Below, piece after piece: positions 16,577 to 49,764 of a DNA stretch of 49,764 nt. Both the position numbers and the translations under genes were made by a program. Origin of the DNA: Gammaproteobacteria bacterium (lineage in GTDB: Bacteria > Pseudomonadota > Gammaproteobacteria > Steroidobacterales > Steroidobacteraceae); contig JANYLM010000058.1 of NCBI GenBank assembly GCA_025357835.1, positions 1 to 49,764 of the forward strand, in the 5' to 3' direction. The notes beneath the pieces are model-generated. The model was not told where the DNA came from. It saw nothing but the letters and a program-made list of their open reading frames with translations, and searched no databases. Every line of letters begins with the position of its first letter. The first letter of the stretch is position 1.

Positions 16577-17716
16577 ATGAGATTCGATGAGTTCTCAACA
16601 TCCCGAACCCGGCGCACCCTGACGGCGGGCGGCCGAACCCTGCGTGTCCTGGGGTTGGACGGTCCACTGACCGGGGTATTGGCCATCATCGTATGCATCG
16701 GCATTCTGGTGGTTTACAGCGCCTCGGGGCAAAACTGGAAAATGGTCGAGCATCACATGGTGAACATCGGCATCGCGGTCGCTGCCTTACTCGCGCTCGC
16801 CAAGCTCGCGACACCGCAGTACCTGCGCTTGTTTGCGCCCATCGGCTACGTGATCGGCGTGCTGCTGCTGATCGTGGTCGACGTGACGGGGCATATCGGC
16901 AAGGGCGCGCAACGCTGGCTCGATATCGGATTCATGCGCTTCCAGCCCTCCGAGATCATGAAACTCGCCGTGCCCATGATGTGCGCCTGGTACATGCACG
17001 AGCGTCCTCTGCCGCCAACTTTCAAGGATCTGGTGGTCATGGGAGTCATGATAGGGATCCCCACCGCGATGATCGTCACTCAGCCGGATCTGGGCACGGC
17101 GCTGTTGATCGCGGCTTCCGGGCTCATCGTCATGCTGCTGGCAGGCTTGCAGATTCAGATCATCTTAGTATCGATACCGCTGCTGGGCGGCGCCGCATGG
17201 GCCGGATGGCATTTCATTCATGATTATCAGCGTCAGCGAATATTGACTTTCTTGAACCCCGAGACCGATCGGCTCGGCGCCGGCTACCACATCATCCAAT
17301 CGCAAATCGCCATCGGCTCCGGTGGAGTATTCGGCAAGGGCTATATGAACGGCAGTCAAGCACAGTTGGAATTCCTGCCGGAACGATCCACCGATTTCAT
17401 ATTCGCAGTCATCGGCGAGGAATTCGGCTTGCTGGGCCAGCTGCTGATCCTGTCCCTCTACGGCGTTGTCATCGGGCGCGCCCTGTATCTCGCCATGCAG
17501 GGCCAGGACACGTTTGCGCGCCTGACGGGAGGCGCCATCGCGCTCAGCTTCTTTGTCTATGTGTTCGTCAACTCCGGCATGGTGAGCGGCATACTTCCGG
17601 TGGTCGGCGTGCCGCTGCCCATGATCAGCTACGGCGGCACCTCCATGGTGACGCTGTTGGCTGGCTTCGGCATATTGATGTCCTTGCATTCGCACCGCAA
17701 GCTCATCGGATCTTAA
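16577..17716 (+). CDS. rodA: Peptidoglycan glycosyltransferase RodA (SEDS family)
   Basis: A 379-residue polytopic SEDS protein that polymerises lipid II in the elongasome with PBP2. About ten transmembrane segments are apparent. The family signature PERSTDFIFAVIGEEFGLLG contains the catalytic Asp, and the C-terminal LPVVGVPLPMISYGGTSM segment is conserved. The ATG has AGGAAAG about 6 nt upstream. Its usual transpeptidase partner gene mrdA is not adjacent. mltB follows after 2 nt. Confidence 0.96.
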   Translation: MRFDEFSTSRTRRTLTAGGRTLRVLGLDGPLTGVLAIIVCIGILVVYSASGQNWKMVEHHMVNIGIAVAALLALAKLATPQYLRLFAPIGYVIGVLLLIVVDVTGHIGKGAQRWLDIGFMRFQPSEIMKLAVPMMCAWYMHERPLPPTFKDLVVMGVMIGIPTAMIVTQPDLGTALLIAASGLIVMLLAGLQIQIILVSIPLLGGAAWAGWHFIHDYQRQRILTFLNPETDRLGAGYHIIQSQIAIGSGGVFGKGYMNGSQAQLEFLPERSTDFIFAVIGEEFGLLGQLLILSLYGVVIGRALYLAMQGQDTFARLTGGAIALSFFVYVFVNSGMVSGILPVVGVPLPMISYGGTSMVTLLAGFGILMSLHSHRKLIGS

Positions 17717-17718
17717 GC

Positions 17719-18834
17719 GTGCGCACTCTGTCCGGCCTGAAGTATCTATTTCCGCTCGCAATGCTCCTGTGTGGGCACTGTGAATCCGCGGCCGCGCTCG
17801 ACATCAGGCGCCCCGACGTCAAGGACTTCATCGCGCACATGGCCGACACCGCGTCCTTCAAGAAGCACAAATTGCGCAAGCTGCTGAAGGCGGCGCAGAG
17901 TCAACCAGCCATCGTCGAAGCGATGGACCGGCCCGCCGAAAAGGCCAAGCCCTGGTTCGAGTACCGCCCGATCTTCGTTTCCGAAAGGCGCATCCGCGAG
18001 GGAGCGGAATTCTGGGTGGCGCACCGTCAGGCGCTTGATCAAGCCAGCATTCGCAGCGGCGTGGCGCCGGAATATCTGGCGGCCATTCTCGGCGTCGAAA
18101 CCTACTACGGCCGTCTCACCGGCACCTACCGCGTGCTCGACGCGCTGGCCACTCTAGCCTTCGATTATCCCGCTCGGGCGAAATTCTTTCGTAGTGAGCT
18201 CGAACAGTTTCTCCTGCTAACTCGCGACGCGGGTCTCGACCCCTTGAGCGTCAAGGGATCGTATGCCGGTGCCATGGGTGCCCCGCAGTTCATGCCGTCG
18301 AACTACCGACGCTACGCCGTCGATGCGGACGCAGACGGACATATCGACTTATGGACCAATTGGCCCGACGTTTGCGCGAGCGTGGGCAACTATCTCAAAG
18401 AATTCGGTTGGAATACCGGCGAACCCGTGCTGAGCGAAGCCAGCGTGTCCGCCGACAAGACTCTGGATCTGGATGGCCGCAAGCTGGCTCTATCGGAAAC
18501 CGTGGGATCGCTTCGCGCGAAAGGCGTGAACTTCGACAGCCCACTGCCGGCGGATGCACCCGCCCTCTTGATCGCAGCCGACGACACGGACGGCGTCCAC
18601 TGGCGCGTCGGCTACAATAATTTCTATGTCATCACCCGCTACAACCACAGCGCCCTGTACGCCATGGCGGTGTACGAGTTGGCGGCGGCGGTGAAACAGC
18701 GGATGTTGCTGAACGACCCAGCGAGTCTCATGGCGCCGAGCGTGACCCGGTCCAGCCTCGCTCCATCAAGCGCGGCGTCGCCGCGCGCCGGCGCGCCTGC
18801 CACCGCCAATGCTCAGCCGGCCTTACAGCAGTGA
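17719..18834 (+). CDS. mltB: Lytic murein transglycosylase B
   Basis: A 371-residue MltB-type (GH103) lytic transglycosylase that cleaves peptidoglycan with formation of 1,6-anhydro-MurNAc. The N-terminus is a signal peptide (GLKYLFPLAMLLCGHCESAAA); it contains Cys but no clean lipobox. The catalytic Glu is in ILGVETYYGRLTG and AMGAPQFMPSNYRRYAVD is diagnostic. GTG start 3 nt after the rodA stop. The C-terminal 40 residues are Ser/Ala/Pro-rich and probably disordered. Its stop overlaps rlpA. Confidence 0.94.
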   Translation: MRTLSGLKYLFPLAMLLCGHCESAAALDIRRPDVKDFIAHMADTASFKKHKLRKLLKAAQSQPAIVEAMDRPAEKAKPWFEYRPIFVSERRIREGAEFWVAHRQALDQASIRSGVAPEYLAAILGVETYYGRLTGTYRVLDALATLAFDYPARAKFFRSELEQFLLLTRDAGLDPLSVKGSYAGAMGAPQFMPSNYRRYAVDADADGHIDLWTNWPDVCASVGNYLKEFGWNTGEPVLSEASVSADKTLDLDGRKLALSETVGSLRAKGVNFDSPLPADAPALLIAADDTDGVHWRVGYNNFYVITRYNHSALYAMAVYELAAAVKQRMLLNDPASLMAPSVTRSSLAPSSAASPRAGAPATANAQPALQQ

Positions 18835-19769
18835 ATACGCGTCGCCTACTCGCCGCACCGCTAGGGCTGGCCGCCATCGGGCTGTCGGCCTGCTTTAGTA
18901 CTCCGCCGAGACCCGCCGCGCCCGCAGCCACTTCCCCCGTCCCACCCCTGGTGCAGCCGCCGCTTCAGCCACCGAACTCCGTGCCGGATGCCATCCCGCG
19001 TATCGAACCCCGGGCACGCAGCGGCAATCCGCCATTTTACGCTGTATTCGGTAAGCGCTACTACGTACTGTCCTCGAGTGTCGGCTACCGGGAGCGCGGA
19101 GTCGCATCCTGGTACGGGCCGGGCTTTCACAAGGTGCGAACCTCGACCGGCGAGTCCTACGATATGTACGGCATGACGGCTGCTCACAAGACGCTGCTGC
19201 TGCCCGCCTACGTAAGCGTCACGAATTTGCAGAACGGTCGCAGCGTCGTGGTCCGAGTGAACGATCGCGGCCCGTTCGTCGGCAATCGAATCATCGACCT
19301 CTCCTACGCGGCGGCCGCCAAACTCGACATGTTGCGCAACGGCACCGCCATGGTCGAAGTTCGCACCATTGACCCATCGACGCCACCGCCGGTGGTCGCG
19401 GCTCCCGCGGAGAAGCCCCCCACCACGCCGGTCGCCGTGGCACCGGGTGTCGGGGCACCCGTTGCCTTGTCATCGGCCGCTGCGACGACACCCGCTGCCG
19501 TTATCCCGACCGGCTCAAGCGCCGCGGCCGCCGGGGGCCCGCTGTTCGTACAAGCCGGGGCCTTCTCCGACCCAGCGAATGCGGAGCGCCTGGCGCAACA
19601 ATTGCGCGGCGGCAACTACGGCAAAGTCTTCGTGCGCGACGATCAAATCGCGGGCCGAAGAATGTATCGAGTACGAATCGGACCGGTTCCCGATGTCGCA
19701 GGGTTCGACCGAGTGGTCGCCGCGCTCGAGCATGCCGGCATCCACGATGCCCATCTCGCGCTGGACTAA
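18831..19769 (+). CDS. rlpA: Septal ring lytic transglycosylase RlpA family lipoprotein with SPOR domain
   Basis: A 312-residue outer-membrane lipoprotein. Lipobox LSAC at about residue 21. The double-psi beta-barrel domain (about residues 85-185) contains GVASWYGPGFHKVRTSTGE and VRVNDRGPF, the conserved RlpA motifs including the presumed catalytic His/Asp region. A Pro/Ala-rich linker leads to a C-terminal SPOR domain (about 235-312) that binds denuded glycan strands. GTG start inside the mltB stop (GTGA). It is the last gene before a 219-nt gap with several palindromes. Confidence 0.94.
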   Translation: MNTRRLLAAPLGLAAIGLSACFSTPPRPAAPAATSPVPPLVQPPLQPPNSVPDAIPRIEPRARSGNPPFYAVFGKRYYVLSSSVGYRERGVASWYGPGFHKVRTSTGESYDMYGMTAAHKTLLLPAYVSVTNLQNGRSVVVRVNDRGPFVGNRIIDLSYAAAAKLDMLRNGTAMVEVRTIDPSTPPPVVAAPAEKPPTTPVAVAPGVGAPVALSSAAATTPAAVIPTGSSAAAAGGPLFVQAGAFSDPANAERLAQQLRGGNYGKVFVRDDQIAGRRMYRVRIGPVPDVAGFDRVVAALEHAGIHDAHLALD

Positions 19770-40410: not shown

Positions 40411-40973
40411 CGGGTCGGTAAGGCTCTCAATATCTCTCCCCGCACCAAGTACCGGCCGCTCTGCTGGAACGGCACGCAGGTGATATCTTGCCTAAGATCT
40501 CGAGTGACGAACTTCGGCAGGATCTGACGCACGAACGCCTCGACCAGCTCGCAATCTGCGATGCCCATATTGCGAAACGCGTCGCTGGTGATGGTAAACG
40601 CCTCGAAGCGCGCGTTCACCACTCCCAAATCCCCCGGGTGCAGCGGTTTGGCGGCGGCGTCCACCAGGGTCGGCGTCGAGAAAACCAATCCTAAGCTGGG
40701 GCCCAAAGAACCGAGCCGCGCCCGCGCCGCCGGTTCTTCACAGCCCAAGGCCGTGATGCGTAGATCCCGCTGCGCCCCCAAGTCCAGCAGCATGGCGCGC
40801 ACCTTGTCGCGCAAGCCATCGCAGCTATAGCGTGAGGTGCGGCCCATGTAGTAGAAATTCAGACGCTGCTCCTTCCAGGCCGCCGCAATCGGGTAGGCGG
40901 TGCCGCGCTCGGCCGACCAAGTAGTGGCGGCGAACATCAGTCCCACCCCGGCGAGCACCCAACAAGACCGCAT
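40407..40973 (-). CDS. Small secreted hypothetical protein with four cysteines
   Basis: A 188-residue protein I do not recognise. It has a signal peptide (hydrophobic core, then TWSAERG near residue 20) and four cysteines in the mature part (YSCDG, LGCEEP, IADCEL, DITCVP), suggesting two disulfide bonds. The order of secondary structure looks mixed alpha/beta. It overlaps the convergent apaH by 4 nt and is divergent from the haaO operon. No function is proposed. Confidence 0.7.
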   Translation of the reverse strand: MRSCWVLAGVGLMFAATTWSAERGTAYPIAAAWKEQRLNFYYMGRTSRYSCDGLRDKVRAMLLDLGAQRDLRITALGCEEPAARARLGSLGPSLGLVFSTPTLVDAAAKPLHPGDLGVVNARFEAFTITSDAFRNMGIADCELVEAFVRQILPKFVTRDLRQDITCVPFQQSGRYLVRGEILRALPTR

Positions 40974-41028
40974 ACGGACCCCCGATTGTTTTGACTACGC
41001 CAATGGCGGCGAAGTTTCACGGCGCCGC

Positions 41029-41034
41029 TATAAT
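41029..41034 (+). promoter_or_regulatory. Perfect TATAAT -10 hexamer just upstream of haaO
   Basis: TATAAT lies 6 nt before the haaO ATG (41041). Transcription from it would start at or near the ATG, giving a leaderless or nearly leaderless transcript, although AAGGG directly precedes the ATG. No matching -35 at 16-18 nt is visible. Confidence 0.3.
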
Positions 41035-41040
41035 GAAGGG

Positions 41041-41559
41041 ATGAAACCAGCTCCACCCTTCAATCTGCTCCAATGGATTGACACGAATCGCGATCTGCTC
41101 AAACCACCGGTGGGCAATAAGCTGCTGTTTCAGGACAGTGCCTTCATCGTCATGGCCGTCGGCGGTCCCAATTCACGCAAGGATTTCCATCATGATCCGA
41201 GCGAGGAGTTTTTCTTCCAGTTGGAAGGCGACATGGTGCTCAAGACCATGCAGAACGGCCGCTTGACCGCCGTACCCATCCGCCAGGGCGAGGTATTCTT
41301 GTTGCCGGCGGAAGTGCCCCATTCACCGCAGCGTCCGGCGGGCAGCGTCGGAATCGTGGTCGAACGACGCCGAAATCCCGATGAACTAGATGGGTTCTCC
41401 TGGTATTGCGAGCACTGCGGGCACCGCCTGCATCTAGAACGAGTTGCCGTGCGCGACATTGAAACGCAGCTGCCGGAGATTTTTGCGCGATTTTACGCGA
41501 GCATTTCGCAGCGCACCTGCACAGTCTGCAGTGTGGTCATGCAGGCTCCCGGCAAGTGA
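41041..41559 (+). CDS. nbaC: 3-hydroxyanthranilate 3,4-dioxygenase
   Basis: A 172-residue cupin dioxygenase that opens 3-hydroxyanthranilate to 2-amino-3-carboxymuconate semialdehyde, the precursor of quinolinate. Iron ligands H50, E56 and H94 are in RKDFHHDPSEEFFFQ and EVPHSPQRP. The bacterial-type rubredoxin-like second metal site is present as C123/C126 and C160/C163. First gene of an operon with kynU and kmo (overlaps by GTGA). Confidence 0.93.
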   Translation: MKPAPPFNLLQWIDTNRDLLKPPVGNKLLFQDSAFIVMAVGGPNSRKDFHHDPSEEFFFQLEGDMVLKTMQNGRLTAVPIRQGEVFLLPAEVPHSPQRPAGSVGIVVERRRNPDELDGFSWYCEHCGHRLHLERVAVRDIETQLPEIFARFYASISQRTCTVCSVVMQAPGK

Positions 41560-42827
41560 CGCCCCACGCGGCAGAGGCGCTGGCCCAAGACGCAAAGGAT
41601 CCTCTAGCGTGCTTCGCGGCGCAATTCCATCATCCTTACGACGCCGCCGGACGCAGACTGGTGTATCTCTGCGGTCATTCGTTGGGGCTTCAGCCCAAAT
41701 CAGTGGCGCAATATGTTGAACAAGAGCTGCAGGACTGGCAACGCCTGGGAGTACTCGGGCATTACGCCGCGAAACGGCCTTGGATCCCTTATCACGAACA
41801 AGCGGCCGCGCCGCTCGCCGCCCTCATCGGCGCTCATGAGACCGAAGTCGTCGCCATGAATTCGTTGACGGTCAATCTGCACTTGATGATGGTGAGTTTC
41901 TTTCGCCCCGTGGGGATGCGCAGCCGAGTGCTGATCGAGAAATCGGCCTTTCCCTCGGATCGCTACGCCATCGCATCGCAGCTCGCCTTCCACGGCCTGA
42001 ATGCGCCGGAACACCTGATAGAAGTCGCGCCGCGTCCCGGCGAGAGAATATTGAGAACGGAGGACGTGATCCGCCGCATCGAGCAAGAGGGCGGTACTCT
42101 GGCACTGGTGCTGTTACCTAGTGTTCAGTATCTTACCGGTCAATCCCTGGACTTGATTCCCGTGATCGGCGCGGCACGCCGCGCCGGCGCCGCAGTGGGC
42201 CTGGACCTGGCTCACGGCATCGGCAACACCCTGCTGAATTTGCACGATTGGAATGTCGACTTCGCCGTGTGGTGCAGTTACAAGTATCTGAACGCCGGAC
42301 CCGGCGCGATCGGTGGTTGCTTCGTGCACGAACGCCATGCTCGCAACGTCGCTATACCGCGGTTTGCCGGTTGGTGGGGGCAAGATGCAGCGACACGGTT
42401 TCAGATGGGACCCGAGTTCAATCCCATCGCGGGCGCACAAGGTTGGCAAATCAGCAATCCACCGGTGCTTTCCGCGGCTCCGCTGCTGGCATCGTTGGAT
42501 ATCTTTCAGCGCGCCGGGATTCGGCGGCTGCGGGAGAAATCGATTGCGCTGACCGGGTTCTTGCAGCGGCTTGTCGACACCTTGCTCCCGGGCCTTGTGG
42601 ACATCATTACACCGAGCGCGGTCGACGGGCGCGGCTGTCAATTGAGCTTGGCGCTCAAGCGATCGCCCGCGGACGCCAAGCGCTGCTATGAGCTACTCAC
42701 CGAGGCGGGAATAGTGGTCGATTGGCGCGAGCCCGATGTGCTGCGGCTGGCGCCGATTCCACTATACAACTCCTACAGTGATGTAGTCGCGGCGGTGGAC
42801 GCCCTATCGCTAGCCCTGCGCCGGTGA
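41556..42827 (+). CDS. kynU: Kynureninase
   Basis: A 423-residue PLP-dependent hydrolase that converts 3-hydroxykynurenine or kynurenine to (3-hydroxy)anthranilate and alanine. The PLP Lys is in WCSYKYLNAGPGAIGG; GLDLAHGIGNTLLNLHDW and AMNSLTVNLHLMM are family-typical. GTG start inside the nbaC stop; stop overlaps kmo. Confidence 0.93.
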   Translation: MTPHAAEALAQDAKDPLACFAAQFHHPYDAAGRRLVYLCGHSLGLQPKSVAQYVEQELQDWQRLGVLGHYAAKRPWIPYHEQAAAPLAALIGAHETEVVAMNSLTVNLHLMMVSFFRPVGMRSRVLIEKSAFPSDRYAIASQLAFHGLNAPEHLIEVAPRPGERILRTEDVIRRIEQEGGTLALVLLPSVQYLTGQSLDLIPVIGAARRAGAAVGLDLAHGIGNTLLNLHDWNVDFAVWCSYKYLNAGPGAIGGCFVHERHARNVAIPRFAGWWGQDAATRFQMGPEFNPIAGAQGWQISNPPVLSAAPLLASLDIFQRAGIRRLREKSIALTGFLQRLVDTLLPGLVDIITPSAVDGRGCQLSLALKRSPADAKRCYELLTEAGIVVDWREPDVLRLAPIPLYNSYSDVVAAVDALSLALRR

Positions 42828-44188
42828 GCATCGACCGGTCCACGGTTCGCATCATCGGCGCCGGCCCCACCGGCGCGCTGCTCGCCATCCTATTGCAGCG
42901 CCGCGGCCACACCGTGGAACTCTACGAAGGCCGCTCCGACCCGAGAGGGGTAACCGCGGATTCCGGCCGATCCATCAACCTGGCATTGGCGGATCGCGGC
43001 ATTCATGCCCTGCAACTGGCGGGGGTGTTTCAAGCCCTTCACCAGGCGTTGCTGCCCATGCGCGGACGGCTCATTCATCATGCCGAGGGAGGCACCTCGC
43101 TCCAGCCCTATGGCCAGCGGCCCAACGAGCTGATTTACTCGATCTCGCGCCACAGGCTCAACCAGACCTTACTCGACGTGGCCGCTCGCCAGCCTGGGGT
43201 CAGCGTGCATTTCGAGCATCGATTCGAGGCCGCCGAATTTGACGAGAGAATGGCGCTGATACGCGATCTTCGTCAGGACCGGCTGATCAGAGTACCTATG
43301 CAGCCGCTCTTGGCCACCGATGGCGCCGGCTCGTGGATGCGCCGGCGCATGACCATGATGCAATTGATCGAGGCGCAGGAGACCGATCTAGCGCATGGCT
43401 ACAAGGAGCTATCCATTCCAGCCGATGCGGCCGGGCGCTACAAAATGGCTGCCGATGCCTTGCACATTTGGCCGCGCGGCAATTATATGTTGATCGCGCT
43501 GCCGAATGAGGACGGCAGCTTTACCGCAACCCTATTCCTGGCCAAGCACGGTGAGACGAGTTTCGAGAGCTTGACCGACAAGGTTGCCATCGAAGAATTC
43601 CTGTCGCGGAGTTTCCCCGACGCTCGCGAATTGATGCCCGATTGCATTGCCGAGTTCCAAGAACACCCTGTCGGCTTTCTCGGTACGGTATTGGCGAAGC
43701 CCTGGCATTATCGAGATATGACGGCGCTGATCGGCGACTCCGCGCACGCCATCGTGCCCTTTCACGGCCAAGGCATGAATTGCTGCTTCGAAGACTGCGT
43801 GGAATTCGACGGCTGCATGGGCCGGCATACCTCTTGGGAAGGCGTGTTCGCGGAATTCGGCGCCCTGCGCAAACCCAACACCGACGCCATCGGCGCCATG
43901 GCGCTCGACAATTATCTGGAAATGCGCGAACGCGTCGCCAACCCCAAGTTTCAGCTACAACAGGCGCTGTCCTTGGAACTGGAGCGGCGGTTCCCGCAGC
44001 GCTTCATCCCCCGCTACTCCATGGTGATGTTCCATCATGAAATTCCGTACCAGACTGCGCAGCAGCGCGGAACCGTACAAACGCAGTTACTGGACGAATT
44101 GACGTCGGACGGAGTCGCTAGCCTCGCGGACGTTGACTTCAAGCGTGCGGAGCGTGAGATCCATGCCAGGCTCGCGCCAATCAGTTGA
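42824..44188 (+). CDS. kmo: Kynurenine 3-monooxygenase
   Basis: A 454-residue FAD-dependent monooxygenase that hydroxylates kynurenine with NADPH and O2. FAD motif IIGAGPTGALLAILLQRRGH (residues about 9-28), the second FAD motif LIGDSAHAIVPFHGQGMNC and a C-terminal region that ends before folA. GTG start overlaps the kynU stop. With nbaC and kynU it covers the lower kynurenine pathway; the tryptophan dioxygenase, kynurenine formamidase and quinolinate phosphoribosyltransferase genes must lie elsewhere. It overlaps the convergent folA by 8 nt. Confidence 0.93.
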   Translation: MSIDRSTVRIIGAGPTGALLAILLQRRGHTVELYEGRSDPRGVTADSGRSINLALADRGIHALQLAGVFQALHQALLPMRGRLIHHAEGGTSLQPYGQRPNELIYSISRHRLNQTLLDVAARQPGVSVHFEHRFEAAEFDERMALIRDLRQDRLIRVPMQPLLATDGAGSWMRRRMTMMQLIEAQETDLAHGYKELSIPADAAGRYKMAADALHIWPRGNYMLIALPNEDGSFTATLFLAKHGETSFESLTDKVAIEEFLSRSFPDARELMPDCIAEFQEHPVGFLGTVLAKPWHYRDMTALIGDSAHAIVPFHGQGMNCCFEDCVEFDGCMGRHTSWEGVFAEFGALRKPNTDAIGAMALDNYLEMRERVANPKFQLQQALSLELERRFPQRFIPRYSMVMFHHEIPYQTAQQRGTVQTQLLDELTSDGVASLADVDFKRAEREIHARLAPIS

Positions 44189-44875: not shown

Positions 44876-45943
44876 TCAGTAGTTGATCGACGGGTTGTCG
44901 CCGGGATAGATCACCCCGACGATGTCGAAGCCGCCCGGCGTCGTGCACTGCACGGAGTGCAATTGCTTTCGTGGAAGGAACAGAACATCTCCCGCTGCAA
45001 CGGTCGTCTTGACGTTCTCCGTCCAAACCACGCCGGCACCGTTCAGGAAGATCAGCGCCTCTTCGTAAAGATGCCGGTGCGGTTCTGCCTTTGATAGCGG
45101 GATGTTGCCGATGAACTGAGTCACGACCGTTGAACCATGCTCGCGATTGACCAGCATTTGATAATAGCGCTCGGCCATCTTGTGGCGCTGTGCGGGATCG
45201 ATGCTCGCATCGCGGTGCGGATACTGAGCTTCGAATGCCGTCGGCATATCGTTCAGCCAGATCAGGTTTTCGCTGCCGGGGCCATTGGAGACAAAGAGCT
45301 TTATCGGCGCGGCGGAGAGATTATGCACGCGGTAGGCTTCGCTCGGCCGGACATACACGCCGGTGCGCGGACCTACCGCAAAGCGCCGCCCGCTGATCTC
45401 GATCTCCCCTTCCCCGTCGATAACGAACAGCACGGTGTGCCGTCCATCCGCCGAAATTATGGGCGAGGCACCCAAAGAGATTTCCGCGTAGAACTGCGAT
45501 TGAAACAGCGCGCCCAAAGCCGGACTCACAACCGGGCAGTACCGCATCGAACCGCGCGGCACGAGCGTCGCCCTATGGGTGGAGAAGACATAGCACTGCC
45601 CGTCGAGCCGAACAACCGGCGCGGCACTCGCCGCGACCATCGCTACCTTGCGGTTCTCGGCGCCATCCGGGTCATCAGTGAGATAGCCGCCCGGCAGATT
45701 ACTGTGGGCGCCATCGCAGAACGGCGCCGTGGCCGTATGCTTGCAACCGCAAAAGATGACGTCCTCGTCCGTCTCGGCCTTAAACGTCACCGGCAAGAAG
45801 CCTGTGCCGGCGTGCGAACCGTCGCAGAACGGCTGCGTCTTCGATCGTCCGCAGCTACACCACAGGTAGCGCTTGCCTGCCTTGATCTCGTAGTAGTAAC
45901 CCTTGCGATTGGCAATGACGGGGGGCGTTGCGGATTCATTCAT
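44876..45943 (-). CDS. Double CDGSH iron-sulfur domain fused to a bicupin
   Basis: A 355-residue cytoplasmic protein with no signal peptide. Residues about 27-44 (CSCGRSKTQPFCDGSH) and 65-80 (CGCKHTATAPFCDGAH) are perfect CDGSH motifs, each able to bind a 2Fe-2S cluster through three Cys and one His (C29, C31, C40, H44; C65, C67, C76, H80). Residues about 145-220 and 275-345 are two cupin units. The second keeps a full metal site (H289, H291, E295, H329); the first lacks it. Such an arrangement might join electron transfer to a cupin oxygenase or hydrolase, which is inference. Start overlaps the cyclase gene by 8 nt; third gene of the receptor operon. Confidence 0.85.
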   Translation of the reverse strand: MNESATPPVIANRKGYYYEIKAGKRYLWCSCGRSKTQPFCDGSHAGTGFLPVTFKAETDEDVIFCGCKHTATAPFCDGAHSNLPGGYLTDDPDGAENRKVAMVAASAAPVVRLDGQCYVFSTHRATLVPRGSMRYCPVVSPALGALFQSQFYAEISLGASPIISADGRHTVLFVIDGEGEIEISGRRFAVGPRTGVYVRPSEAYRVHNLSAAPIKLFVSNGPGSENLIWLNDMPTAFEAQYPHRDASIDPAQRHKMAERYYQMLVNREHGSTVVTQFIGNIPLSKAEPHRHLYEEALIFLNGAGVVWTENVKTTVAAGDVLFLPRKQLHSVQCTTPGGFDIVGVIYPGDNPSINY

Positions 45944-46907
45944 GGGTTTCTCTCAGCACCCCGTCGGCACCGCGGCGCAGCGGGCGTACGTGCATCGGGA
46001 GGGGCGCACCGGACTGTTCATCGATCGTGGTGCCAAAACGCCAGCTCTCCGGCGCAATTGCGATATAGCGGGCAAATCCGCCGGTTCCGCCTTGGAATTT
46101 CGCGAAACCGATCGCAATCAGAGCGCCGCTTTCGGGGACGCGGTCGAGATTCGCGACACCCTCGGCCTGGGCGAAATTATGCTTCAGCAGCCATTTCTCG
46201 CCGACGAACTCGGGAGCGGTGTTATCGGTATCCAAGGGTTCATGTCCATGCATTAGAACATGCCGGTCCAGGTGCAAGTACTTGAGTGCCGCCAAGGTTA
46301 CGCCGGGGAACGGCTGGGCAGTAAAGCGCTTCGGATCGTTCCACTTCTGCGACCAATCCGATCGGATCATCACCACGGATCCAGCCGGCACCTGCCCGTG
46401 GCGGTGTTCCCAGTCCTTTATGTCGGCGACTGTGGTCTGATATCCAGGGTCCACAGCGACCTTGGCCGCCACGTTGATGACCACCAATGGCCGCAACGCA
46501 ACGGTGGGCGGGATATCGCTCATAGTCGCTCCATGATCATTCTCATGCGCTGGAGGTCCGAACTGGGTGCCTATATGGTCCATCGGCAACTCGTAGGCCG
46601 TGATCGCCACCCCCAGCTTGTCGTAGGTGAACGGCTCGCCGGTGTCGATGACACCCGGGATGGACACCCCCGCACGCGCGGGTGCAACCTTGAAGTCCGC
46701 GAATCCTTCGCCAATCGGTCCGCCCGGTGCCATGGCGTGCGTCAAGTCGATGTACTTGGCGTGCCTTAGCACCAAGTTGTAGAGGTCCCAGAGCGGCATT
46801 CCCTTGCCGCCTTGATCTTCGGCGCCCGCCCGTCCGCCCTCGGCCATCAACAACGCGCATGCAACCATCCAGGGAAGGACCCGATACACCACCGCTCTCT
46901 TTCTCAT
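45936..46907 (-). CDS. Secreted cyclase-family (PF04199-type) hydrolase with altered metal motif
   Basis: A 323-residue protein with a signal peptide (VLPWMVACALLMAEGGRAGA), so periplasmic or exported. It belongs to the cyclase superfamily that includes kynurenine formamidase and isatin hydrolase, shown by KYIDLTHAMAPGGP and the C-terminal AEGVANLDRVPESGALIAI plus FQGGTGGFARYIAIAP. The metal motif reads HIGTQFGPPAH (H111, Q115, G117, H121), whereas the canonical form is HxGTHxDxPxH; the second and third ligands are Q and G. Exact reaction unknown. The start ATG at 46907 overlaps the receptor stop (TAATG). Because it is exported and lies across the receptor, it is unlikely to be the missing kynurenine formamidase. 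Confidence 0.83.
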   Translation of the reverse strand: MRKRAVVYRVLPWMVACALLMAEGGRAGAEDQGGKGMPLWDLYNLVLRHAKYIDLTHAMAPGGPIGEGFADFKVAPARAGVSIPGVIDTGEPFTYDKLGVAITAYELPMDHIGTQFGPPAHENDHGATMSDIPPTVALRPLVVINVAAKVAVDPGYQTTVADIKDWEHRHGQVPAGSVVMIRSDWSQKWNDPKRFTAQPFPGVTLAALKYLHLDRHVLMHGHEPLDTDNTAPEFVGEKWLLKHNFAQAEGVANLDRVPESGALIAIGFAKFQGGTGGFARYIAIAPESWRFGTTIDEQSGAPLPMHVRPLRRGADGVLRETHE

Positions 46908-49333
46908 TAGAAAGTCCGCGTTAACCTCACGCCGATCGTCCGCGGGCGCACCGTCAGAAGCGAATCGGGGTCCTGCGAGGAATTGATCGCAGATACCTCG
47001 GCACGCTTGTCGATCAGATTGCGGGCGAAAGCAGTAACGCTCCACGGACCGTTGATGAGGCCAAACCGTAGATTGACCAGAGTGTAGGGCGCAAGCGGCA
47101 GATTGAATTGAGTATTGGAGGCGAAATAGGCATTCACTGCGTCACGATAGTTCACATCCGTCGCAACCACGCCCTGCCAATTTCCGCTCAACGGTCGGGT
47201 GTAGTTGAGGCTAAGGTTGAATTGGAACTTCGGCACATTGGGAATGGCATCGCCGGTGACACCCAGCGTGGGGTTGAACGCTTTTTGCGCCATACTGGCT
47301 CCCTCGGTGAGGTAGGCGTCAGTATACGAACCGGCAAAACTGGCGGTCAGGTATTGGACGGGACGGGCGGTGAATTCGAACTCTGCACCCTTGACGTGCG
47401 CGGTACCCGCGTTGCCTTGGTACACGAAGGCGCCGTCGGGGGTCGTTTGTTGCACCTGTATGTTGTTCCAGCGGGTGAAATAGACGTCGGCCTGATAGTC
47501 GAACAGGCCATCGAACAGCCGACCCTTGGCGCCCACCTCGAAATTGGTGAGCGTATCCGGCGCGTAGGCCGCGGGGATCTTTTCGAACGGTTGGCTGACG
47601 GCGTTCAGACCGCCGCCTCGGAAGCCTGTCGAGACGGTCCCGTAGCCCAGCAGGCTCTCATTGAATTTATAGCTGAGATTGGCCTTCCACGTGACTTTGT
47701 TAAAGGTCTCCTGGGGGTCAGGCAAAGGGACCAAAGTCGGCCCGGGTGGAAAGCCGCCGAAGGGATGGGTCTGCGTCTGCACGCCGTTCAGCGTCTCGGT
47801 GAAATAGCGCAATCCCGCAACGGCGGTCCAGGCAGGGGTGATTTTCCATGTGGCCTCGCCGAAACCCGCATATTGAGTAGCGGTCCTGTCATCCGTTCGG
47901 CCGAAGAAGGTGGTGCCGACGCCCGGAAAATTAAGTGCATCGTCGGAGTTGGCGCTGCTGAACGGACCATTCGGCAAGCCGAAGCCATTCGTGGCGATCA
48001 CCTGTACCGCCAGATTCTGACTGTCATGCTCGCGGAAACCACCGACCACGAAGTTGACGGGGGAATCCAAGTCGCTGGCGAATCTCAGCTCGCTGGCGTT
48101 GACTTTCCGAGTCCGCGGTTCGAGAGTCTCGGCCGGCACGGGGACACTGAAAGATACCAGTATGGGGGTAGAGTCGAAAGTGAAGCCGGTCGTGCGGTTG
48201 AACTGATTGGTGGTGCCGGTCACCGTGCCTGCGGTCGTTTTATACGCCACCGTCACGCCGAAAACCTTGAGATTGTCGCTCCACGGACTTCGGGTCACAT
48301 CGGTGTTGCACAGGTCGCAACCCTGCACGGGCGGGATGTTGGTGGCGACCAGCTTGGGGGTGAAGGTGTTGAAAGCAGTGACGCCCGCCGGAGTGTAGCG
48401 CGATGAACCGCCCGAGGTTTCGCTCTGCGAGGTGTAATTGGCGTCGATAGTCAGGTTGTCGGTGGGCTGATAGCGCACTATCACCCGTCCGCCGCCCACG
48501 TTGTCATCGTTGACGCCCTTGACGAACCCTTGGCCTGCGACCGGAGCGGGCTGATACTTCGGTACTTGGGCTGTTCCCACATTGACGAGGCCGGTAACGC
48601 CTACGCCCACGCGGGTCTGATCGATGTAGCCGCTATCATCGGCCTTCCATCCCACCAGGCGCAGCGCCAGCACGCCGTCAATGAGGGGCAGGTTAATCGC
48701 GCCGTTGAAGTTGTAATTCCCGCTGCCGTGGGAGGTCTCCGATCCTTCCATCGTCAGGTACCCGCCGAGATTGTGAAGATCTGGCGAATTGGGGACAAAG
48801 CGGATTGTGCCGCTCATGGAACTCGCGCCGTACAAGGTGCCCTGCGGACCGCGCAAAACTTCGATGCGATCCAGGTCGTACAGACGAATGTCGGACTGGA
48901 AGCCGCCGCCGTCATCGGCATTGGAGGCGCTGATCACGGCTTCTCCATAGTAGATGCCGGTGGTCGAATCACCGGTGGAGTTGATGCCGCGGATCACGTA
49001 TTTCTTGTCGCCGGGACCTAAGTCCTGCACCGACAAGCCGGGTATCTGGCCGGCGATGTCCATAAACGCCGAGGAGCCGGCGCGCTGCAACGACTCGCCG
49101 CTGATGGCCTGGATCGATGCCGGGACATCGAGCACTTTCTGAACATTGAGCTTGTTGGCCGTGACGACAATCTCCTCCAGCGGCGCGGCTTCACCCGAAG
49201 CCTGGGTGGCCAGATCCGCCGCCACGACGGGCGCGCAGATCAGCGTCGCGGCCATGCCGGCGCCCGCGACGAGCATGCCGCAGGAAAGTGTGTACTTGCG
49301 GGTCAATTGAATTCCGATTGCAAGATGAAGCAT
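46907..49333 (-). CDS. TonB-dependent outer-membrane receptor, sphingomonad/FecA-like type
   Basis: An 808-residue receptor. Signal peptide ends near VVAAD; the TonB box region is LEEIVVTANKL, the plug has SIQAISGESLQRAG and DRIEVLRGPQGTLYGASSMSGTI, and the barrel ends in VRLTRTF with terminal Phe. ATG has AGGGGG 6 nt upstream. First gene of an operon with the cyclase and CDGSH-bicupin genes. Related receptors occur in aromatic-degradation loci; the imported ligand is unknown. A pair CDLC occurs in an extracellular region. Confidence 0.9.
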   Translation of the reverse strand: MLHLAIGIQLTRKYTLSCGMLVAGAGMAATLICAPVVAADLATQASGEAAPLEEIVVTANKLNVQKVLDVPASIQAISGESLQRAGSSAFMDIAGQIPGLSVQDLGPGDKKYVIRGINSTGDSTTGIYYGEAVISASNADDGGGFQSDIRLYDLDRIEVLRGPQGTLYGASSMSGTIRFVPNSPDLHNLGGYLTMEGSETSHGSGNYNFNGAINLPLIDGVLALRLVGWKADDSGYIDQTRVGVGVTGLVNVGTAQVPKYQPAPVAGQGFVKGVNDDNVGGGRVIVRYQPTDNLTIDANYTSQSETSGGSSRYTPAGVTAFNTFTPKLVATNIPPVQGCDLCNTDVTRSPWSDNLKVFGVTVAYKTTAGTVTGTTNQFNRTTGFTFDSTPILVSFSVPVPAETLEPRTRKVNASELRFASDLDSPVNFVVGGFREHDSQNLAVQVIATNGFGLPNGPFSSANSDDALNFPGVGTTFFGRTDDRTATQYAGFGEATWKITPAWTAVAGLRYFTETLNGVQTQTHPFGGFPPGPTLVPLPDPQETFNKVTWKANLSYKFNESLLGYGTVSTGFRGGGLNAVSQPFEKIPAAYAPDTLTNFEVGAKGRLFDGLFDYQADVYFTRWNNIQVQQTTPDGAFVYQGNAGTAHVKGAEFEFTARPVQYLTASFAGSYTDAYLTEGASMAQKAFNPTLGVTGDAIPNVPKFQFNLSLNYTRPLSGNWQGVVATDVNYRDAVNAYFASNTQFNLPLAPYTLVNLRFGLINGPWSVTAFARNLIDKRAEVSAINSSQDPDSLLTVRPRTIGVRLTRTF

Positions 49334-49496: not shown

Positions 49497-49764
49497 CTAC
49501 TCGCGCACCATATTTTGGCTCATCCGCCGGATTAGGGCGAAGGCCGTAGCGAGTTCCTGAGGCGAAAACCCCTCGAGCAGACGCTGTTGGCGGCGGCGTA
49601 CCACGACATTCAAAGAGTTGAACAGTGCGCGGCCTTTGTCGGTCAGAAACACTTCGACATAGCGGGCATCGTCGCGGCGCGCCACGCGCCGGACATAGTC
49701 TTCCTTTTCCATGTTCATGAGAGCCCGGCTGAGCGCCGACTGCTGCATCATCGCGCGCTCGACG
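49497..49764 (-). CDS. MarR-family transcriptional regulator, N-terminally truncated by the window edge
   Basis: The frame continues off the right end. The visible 88 residues hold the recognition helix and wing of the winged helix (MMQQSALSRALMNMEKEDYV, then VRRVARRDDARYVEVFLT with the wing Asp-Asp-Ala-Arg) and the dimerisation helices. It lies directly upstream of the receptor operon in the same orientation, so it is the obvious candidate regulator for O1/O2. MarR proteins usually repress and are released by phenolic or other small ligands. Confidence 0.85.
   Translation of the reverse strand, partial: VERAMMQQSALSRALMNMEKEDYVRRVARRDDARYVEVFLTDKGRALFNSLNVVVRRRQQRLLEGFSPQELATAFALIRRMSQNMVRE

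Follow-up and report, generated by a model that had tools for sequence, protein, structure and literature searches.

The window (the whole 49,764-nt stretch of DNA analysed here) carries, on its minus strand, a gene encoding two CDGSH (NEET) motifs fused to a bicupin. We propose that this bicupin is the oxygenase of a catabolic pathway for an indolic amino acid, most likely tryptophan, a reading to which we assign a probability a little under one half (about 0.46). The link of the bicupin family to an isatin pathway is well supported, and the bicupin is probably the O2-using first enzyme of an undescribed tryptophan route through isatin. Textbook aerobic breakdown of tryptophan is the TDO/kynurenine pathway. 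If bacteria also degrade tryptophan through isatin, starting with a non-haem enzyme, the interpretation of their tryptophan and indole metabolism from genome sequences would have to change, and the bicupin may account for the supply of substrate to isatin hydrolase where a bacterium has both genes. A catalytic partner in the same chain would allow a direct test of what NEET domains do in bacteria; if our proposal is correct, this would be, to our knowledge, the first NEET domain to serve as the electron-supply part of a catalytic enzyme. We know of no activity for any member of the bicupin family. Indeed, we found no characterised protein that combines CDGSH and cupin domains in the portions of the open-licence literature covered by our search, where a paper on short linear motifs (PMC9854524) alone mentions both; the layout, described in the preliminary description as lacking any known characterised example, is conserved and, as far as that search reaches, uncharacterised. 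Likewise, titles and abstract openings of the open-licence isatin literature (including PMC6117287, PMC6221969 and PMC12633357) yielded no tryptophan-to-isatin pathway.

The features of the bicupin gene and of its operon are as follows.

44876-45943, minus strand: CDGSH-CDGSH-bicupin gene (open reading frame and Pfam); ATG start, 355 aa
45812-45859, minus strand: CDGSH motif 1, residues 29-44; ligands C29, C31, C40, H44
45704-45751, minus strand: CDGSH motif 2, residues 65-80; ligands C65, C67, C76, H80
45278-45607, minus strand: first cupin barrel, approximately residues 113-222; no conserved metal site seen
44879-45121, minus strand: second cupin barrel, approximately residues 275-355; metal site H289, H291, E295, H329
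45936-46907, minus strand: cyclase-family (PF04199) gene, putative isatin hydrolase paralogue without two Mn ligands
46907-49333, minus strand: TonB-dependent receptor gene, the first full operon gene in the window; family also near 26 of 52 bicupin loci
49497-49763, minus strand: MarR-type regulator gene truncated by the edge of the window, C-terminal part only; shares 87% identity over 87 residues with the MarR-family gene at locus L001

Both CDGSH motifs (C29-S-C31-G-R-S34-KTQ-P38-F-C40-DGS-H44 and C65-G-C67-K-H-T70-ATA-P74-F-C76-DGA-H80) fit the pattern CxCx2(S/T)x3PxCDG(S/A)H, as had been claimed from the sequence, and the Pfam scores agree: zf-CDGSH matches two stretches of the protein at 66.2 bits (cut-off 29.5) and Cupin_2 two further stretches at 60.4 bits (cut-off 27.2). 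Since both scores exceed their cut-offs, neither assignment is a chance match; the AraC ligand-binding model also matches the cupin part. With 20 residues between H44 and C65, the module has the arrangement of type 6 CDGSH proteins, whose tandem motifs lie about 20 residues apart according to excerpts of PMC3174974. It resembles MmCISD (3tbn) and human CISD3 in this spacing and in its ligands, and residues 5-83 match 3tbn at 87 bits. Unlike the proteins classified by Lin et al. (2011; PMC3174974), it has a bicupin partner: the excerpted text distinguishes seven CDGSH types and names glutamate synthase (type 5 being type 6 plus a glutamate synthase domain) and DUF1271 as fusion partners, and a bicupin for none of the seven. 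Tandem CDGSH motifs also matched many open reading frames of about 520 aa in a search across the class to which the window belongs; in two plasmid examples the annotation is glutamate synthase-related, which is the known type 5 fusion. The second barrel alone has a conserved metal site, of the HxH(x3)E ... H (3His/1Glu) type; in the first barrel, positions 160-175 and 196-209 vary among aligned members, E202 excepted. The complete cupin site that had been described thus consists of the right residues, and it belongs to the second barrel only.

A scan of GTDB contigs gave 13 bicupin loci, all in proteobacteria. When genomes were searched with a profile of the bicupin part, it matched in 2 of 398 from the phylum (one of them the window's own), 17 of 299 in the order of genome G648, and 25 of 196 in the window's order, its own genome included; a plasmid of Novosphingobium sp. 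KACC 22771 carries, under accession NZ_CP117882.1, a homologue with 47% identity over 97% of the length. Together with this plasmid gene and one from the class-wide search, we counted 56 members (13 + 1 + 1 + 17 + 25, one being counted twice). Forty-five of these were aligned; the remainder are fragments (L013, G782, G1006, G1024, G1037, G1111) or genes missed by the choice of open reading frame (G675, G857, G1071, G987, G961). The four cupin ligands are kept in all 45, and the eight CDGSH ligands in 43, which are all of the members that have the domain; the CDGSH part is absent from the members of G005 and G972. These two form their own clade (support 100/98) against the 43 fusions (100/98) in a midpoint-rooted tree, so that one fusion or one loss accounts for the pattern, and they suggest that the clusters are not strictly required in those lineages. 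The bicupin gene of G1037 looks broken: the CDGSH part, with the cupin as far as about residue 318, is continuous with a 796-aa open reading frame (L140, 9356-11746), while residues 274-355 are matched by an 82-aa piece some 0.2 Mb distant (L142, 9838-10086).

The full-length structure model was poor (pLDDT 59.3), and its Foldseek list was set aside; a model of the bicupin alone, built like the first from 13 sequences, reached 79.7, with low confidence at residues 253-264, 273-283 and 351-355. Foldseek ranked the quercetinase YxaG first for this model, followed by MncA, YlbA and oxalate decarboxylases. Like the quercetin 2,3(2,4)-dioxygenase YxaG, the bicupin has two cupin barrels and a 3His/1Glu-type metal site; unlike YxaG, to which it is 14% identical over the Foldseek alignment, it conserves that site in the second barrel only, carries an N-terminal NEET module, and belongs to a family found among amino-acid and isatin genes. 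Sequence similarity to quercetin dioxygenase amounts to 15.9 bits for the single sequence and 26 bits for the profile, scores for which there is no agreed cut-off, and no quercetinase model is among the NCBIfam matches of the bicupin. The (S)-ureidoglycine aminohydrolase YlbA (UGlyAH) has a comparable bicupin length and fold; by contrast with UGlyAH, the bicupin family has no purine gene among the scanned neighbour families and has HxHx3E..H ligands. Membership of the UGlyAH family was rejected at 22.2 bits against the NCBIfam TIGR03214 cut-off of 200.

In the window, the MarR-type, TonB receptor, cyclase and bicupin genes are consecutive on the minus strand. The receptor stop and the cyclase start share one base (TAATG), and the cyclase stop overlaps the bicupin start by 8 bases; the MarR model matches the truncated product weakly, below its cut-off. 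The cyclase has an N-terminal leader that, by eye, resembles a signal peptide. Its scores are 65-69 bits against isatin hydrolases and 74 bits against a further cyclase, 8f9x, and kynurenine formamidase (KynB) is absent from its matches at E <= 1e-3; assignment as a kynurenine formamidase was rejected, since the isatin hydrolases and 8f9x are the best matches. The Mn ligands of isatin hydrolase are H69, H73 and D75 in LaIHA numbering (PMC6117287, from an excerpt). Where isatin hydrolases read HTGTHFD the window cyclase reads HIGTQFG, so that H73 and D75 are lost; we therefore rejected isatin hydrolase as its identity, and we take it to be a changed isatin hydrolase paralogue. At L001, L002, L111 and L112 a cyclase of the same type, with the motif HIGTQ(F/Y)G, adjoins the bicupin; this type also occurs at L104, where the search pattern missed the motif.

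Neighbour families were counted within 10 kb of the bicupin at 52 of 53 loci (L105 being lost to an overlapping match), with L007 (the same record as L103), L142 (a fragment), G782, G1006 and G1024 excluded; because some loci lie on short contigs, the counts are lower bounds. The scan of neighbour families covered the 20 commonest (F1-F20), each represented by one or a few members.

TonB receptor: 26 of 52 loci
SNF symporter: 20 of 52
APC permease: 12 of 52
amino-acid carrier, SNF or APC: 32 of 52
class V PLP enzyme: 24 of 52 (the window's own is its true kynureninase)
class I aminotransferase-like enzyme: 11 of 52
amidohydrolase: 19 of 52
true isatin hydrolase: 11 of 52
window-type cyclase: 6 of 52
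IOR alpha: 12 of 52
IOR beta: 11 of 52
bifunctional monooxygenase/reductase: 9 of 52
PALP: 5 of 52
OCD: 4 of 52

At least one gene of the isatin module (isatin hydrolase, IOR or monooxygenase/reductase) lies near 17 of the 52 loci, and MarR, Lrp or TetR regulators are found near many; none of the tabulated families occurs within 10 kb at L013, L103, L131 or the fragment L141. The neatest operon is that of L126, in which the bicupin, an SNF carrier, IOR alpha, IOR beta, a MarR-family gene and an isatin hydrolase share one strand and the monooxygenase/reductase gene is on the opposite one. The L126 hydrolase matches isatin hydrolase A (5nnb) at 388 bits, and the motif HTGTHFDAPxHW is present both here and in the hydrolase of the window's own genome (L143); by sequence, the hydrolase of the relatives and of own-genome contig C26 is a member of the true isatin hydrolase family. 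The L126 carrier is nearest to 4us3 (300 bits, against 173 for the best LeuT-type entry), which we take to be MhsT, crystallised with tryptophan. Among the class V PLP enzymes, PLP12 (L108) matches FGM3 at 206 bits, the cysteine desulfurase 8kg1 at 181 and UstD at 137 in the PDB, and the NCBIfam 'cysteine desulfurase-like' model at 499 bits (cut-off 352); PLP3 (L108) matches the aminotransferase 4w91 at 118 bits, SufS at 92 and kynureninase at 82. The monooxygenase/reductase of L128 scores 1017 bits, just under the cut-off of 1078, with PRK08255 ('salicylyl-CoA 5-hydroxylase/oxidoreductase'), and the Azoarcus 2-aminobenzoyl-CoA monooxygenase/reductase reportedly has the same two-part make-up. 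The IOR alpha subunit has no PDB match at E <= 1e-4. In L001-L004, a PALP and ornithine-cyclodeaminase-like pair stands beside PLP3, with NCBIfam matches including EutB/EutC and BhcB/BhcD, all below cut-off. L126, which lacks a class V PLP gene, has 6 kb upstream of its bicupin a gene for a class III aminotransferase fused to an APH-type phosphotransferase domain (16725-19142, minus strand).

The window's own genome carries the rest of such a set elsewhere. Contig C26 has an isatin hydrolase (57% identical to the L126 copy), an APC permease, PLP3, an ornithine-cyclodeaminase-like gene and two PALP genes, which are 68-89% identical to their best matches among bicupin neighbours (PLP3 is 89% identical to that of L001). 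Genes for IOR alpha (64%) and the monooxygenase/reductase (47%) lie 1.6 kb apart on contig C58. Across the eight genomes queried, the monooxygenase/reductase was found in all eight and IOR alpha in seven (the exception being G282).

Isatin hydrolase and the bicupin also co-occur across genomes. Of the 299 genomes in the order of G648, 29 have isatin hydrolase, called at E <= 1e-40; they comprise every one of the 17 bicupin genomes and 12 of the 282 others (Fisher 2e-20). Counted by genus, the figures are 4 of 4 against 4 of 50 (p 2e-4). In the window's order, a strong class of isatin hydrolase (at least 55% identity, a threshold chosen after the list had been seen) was present in 19 of 25 bicupin genomes, counting G1119 though its gene is in pieces, and in 7 of 171 others (p 8e-16); by genus the counts are 7 of 10 and 3 of 50 (p 3e-5). 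These p-values are inflated by related genomes, which the genus counts mend only partly. That the bicupin, isatin hydrolase and TDO searches in the order of G648 used the same genomes, and likewise the bicupin and isatin hydrolase searches in the window's order, we take from their equal numbers and handles. Of the six bicupin genomes of the window's order without the strong class, G1037, G1078 and G1111 have only relatives of 38-39% identity, and isatin hydrolase is absent from G972, G1006 and G1024; five of the seven further genomes behind the GTDB-scan loci have isatin hydrolases at 57-62% identity, and G282 and G284 have none. In the order of G648, 7 of the 17 genomes (G648, G687, G742, G797, G857, G916 and G951) have the two genes on separate contigs, and in G708 a distance of 428 kb separates them. 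Some of the contigs concerned are short, which does not hold for G648, G708 and G742, so that the tie exceeds mere linkage. Of 20 stretches around isatin hydrolase matches of bicupin genomes (one of them, L144, around a 36% relative), 13 also carry IOR or monooxygenase/reductase genes.

We reasoned that between the uptake and PLP-dependent conversion of an amino acid, on the one hand, and isatin hydrolase, on the other, the missing reaction is oxidation of the indole ring of an amino acid. The domains, ligands, linkage and co-occurrence are observed here; we infer the substrate, product and metal, the role of the clusters, and the second, third and fifth steps of the following pathway. A TonB receptor and an SNF or APC carrier would import the amino acid. 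The second barrel would hold one metal, most likely iron, by three histidines and one glutamate and activate O2, adding it across indole C2-C3 of tryptophan. The product of this redox-neutral dioxygenation would be 3-hydroxy-2-oxindolyl-alanine (dioxindolylalanine), a gamma-hydroxy amino acid and an isomer of N-formylkynurenine; the two NEET [2Fe-2S] clusters would hold the metal in its reduced, active form or restore it to that form. Dioxindolylalanine could then undergo retro-aldol cleavage to isatin and alanine by a class V PLP enzyme (kynureninase/SufS-like or UstD/FGM3-like); excerpts describe FGM3 as a PLP retro-aldolase acting on a gamma-hydroxy amino acid (PMC10367076), and PLP enzymes that join isatin with alanine-derived aminoacrylate, the reverse of this step (PMC13397446). 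Isatin hydrolase would open isatin to isatinate, which the IOR-like 2-oxoacid oxidoreductase may convert to 2-aminobenzoyl-CoA for attack by the bifunctional monooxygenase/reductase. In most of L114-L121 there are paired amidohydrolases and an arylsulfatase-like gene, and throughout this group a class I PLP enzyme, of a family with a member nearest GntC, adjoins the bicupin and the class V enzyme is absent; the class I enzyme is possibly an alternative PLP route for the same cleavage.

An oxygenase role for the bicupin is supported because the flavin monooxygenase/reductase is the sole other oxygenase among the 20 commonest neighbour families, and because the fold is nearest that of a quercetin dioxygenase; the retro-aldol step is supported by FGM3 as the best PDB match of PLP12, and tryptophan by 4us3 as the nearest entry to the SNF carrier of L126. 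The 'self-sufficient oxygenase' of the preliminary description is thus the best fit to gene context and fold, with activity and clusters predicted, and its suggestion of aromatic or lactone substrates narrows, from genome context, to an indolic amino acid. Like TDO, the bicupin would insert O2 at indole C2-C3 of tryptophan; TDO is a haem protein of another fold and makes N-formylkynurenine. TDO (PF03301) occurs in 146 of the 299 genomes in the order of G648, and in only 3 of the 17 with the bicupin against 143 of the 282 others (p 0.011, ignoring relatedness), which we count in favour of tryptophan. By contrast, 13 of the 15 genomes of the first set, including the window's own, have TDO, which counts against it, and we rejected the idea that the bicupin substitutes for TDO in every host.

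Several other observations weigh against the tryptophan reading. The APC and TonB families give no substrate specificity. At 28 of the 52 loci, including the clean operons L126, L127, L129 and L130, the 10 kb around the bicupin contain no class V PLP gene, and cysteine desulfurases match PLP12 nearly as well as FGM3 does, which lowers our confidence a little. The cyclase adjoining the window's own bicupin lacks two Mn ligands, and the strong isatin hydrolase is missing from the six genomes noted above and from two of the seven further ones. Moreover, since IadI, which we compare below, acts on a C8H7NO2 compound, the hydrolase of bicupin genomes may not see isatin itself. The bicupin model has low-confidence stretches. 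The NEET part would most simply be an electron store that keeps the metal reduced; a dioxygenation needs no net electrons, and two relatives lack CDGSH. This is the weakest point of our reading. We are more doubtful about the full version of our proposal, in which the bicupin, coupled to its NEET module, would be a self-sufficient non-haem dioxygenase converting tryptophan to dioxindolylalanine, at the head of a route independent of TDO that leads from tryptophan to isatin and alanine, then isatinate, then 2-aminobenzoyl-CoA.

Among the closest known systems are the iad auxin loci of Variovorax and Bradyrhizobium (PMC9613470, PMC12633357), which, in the excerpts of these papers, share with the bicupin loci IOR alpha/beta, MarR and an isatin-hydrolase-like enzyme, and whose route leads to anthranilate via isatin or a C8H7NO2 compound. 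An IOR-like pair is reported for these loci (PMC9613470, excerpt), and part of PMC12633357 describes a nine-gene region, iadC-K2 (by name without iadA and iadB), that takes indoleacetate to anthranilate in Variovorax, and IadI as acting on C8H7NO2. Annotated as a kynurenine formamidase, IadI presumably belongs to the isatin hydrolase family. Unlike the iad loci, where the Rieske oxygenase IadCDE attacks indoleacetate, the bicupin loci have the CDGSH-bicupin, amino-acid carriers and PLP enzymes instead. Within 10 kb of the bicupin loci we did not find the Rieske oxygenase IadDE with its reductase IadC that defines an iad locus; a motif scan within 10 kb of 48 loci found a Rieske-type motif in 1 of 681 neighbour open reading frames.

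Two alternatives also place the bicupin in amino-acid catabolism. It might act after loss of the side chain, with a PLP lyase freeing indole or a related indolic compound and the bicupin dioxygenating it to dioxindole, which would be oxidised to isatin or opened directly. Class V PLP enzymes also catalyse beta-eliminations, and co-occurrence with isatin hydrolase would be the same; indeed, the formula of the IadI substrate, C8H7NO2, is that of dioxindole (PMC12633357, excerpt). We nevertheless consider this unlikely: reaching isatin would need an extra dehydrogenase, and an SDR family is found in nine loci only (48-locus neighbour table); no tryptophanase-type gene is among the 20 scanned neighbour families; and the FGM3 match suggests a gamma-hydroxy amino acid. 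It is rather improbable that the bicupin instead gamma-hydroxylates another amino acid, or serves another step, the isatin link being to the whole cluster. Gamma-hydroxy-arginine is the substrate of both FGM3 and GntC, the named proteins that PLP12 and the class I enzyme, respectively, match best, and the amidohydrolase near 19 of 52 loci resembles Xaa-Pro dipeptidase (below the model cut-off), but isatin hydrolase, IOR and the monooxygenase/reductase point to the indole/anthranilate side.

The other two alternatives detach the bicupin from the proposed pathway. NEET proteins known so far are redox or cluster-transfer proteins, and with a cupin that also matches the AraC ligand-binding model, the fusion could instead sense redox state or iron, or transfer clusters, and be part of the operon by chance, with the cupin binding a ligand. 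This we regard as quite improbable, given that the Pfam scan of the bicupin found no DNA-binding domain, that separate regulators of the MarR, Lrp or TetR type are encoded near many loci, and that the 3His/1Glu site is invariant in the aligned members. It is more improbable still that the bicupin belongs to the adjoining kynurenine-to-quinolinate genes, which lie 0.7 kb away. These genes are encoded on the opposite strand and separated from the bicupin by a dihydrofolate reductase gene, and the window's 3-hydroxyanthranilate dioxygenase and monooxygenase are unmatched among the open reading frames of L001-L013 and L015. The window's kynureninase is just 24% identical to own-genome PLP3, and we rejected it as an ortholog of the clustered PLP3. 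The kynurenine-to-quinolinate set itself (40900-44188, plus strand) comprises 3-hydroxyanthranilate 3,4-dioxygenase, kynureninase and a kynurenine-monooxygenase-like flavoprotein, in genes with overlapping ends; the best NCBIfam match of the flavoprotein is VioC, below its cut-off, and the kynurenine-monooxygenase-like name is our own.
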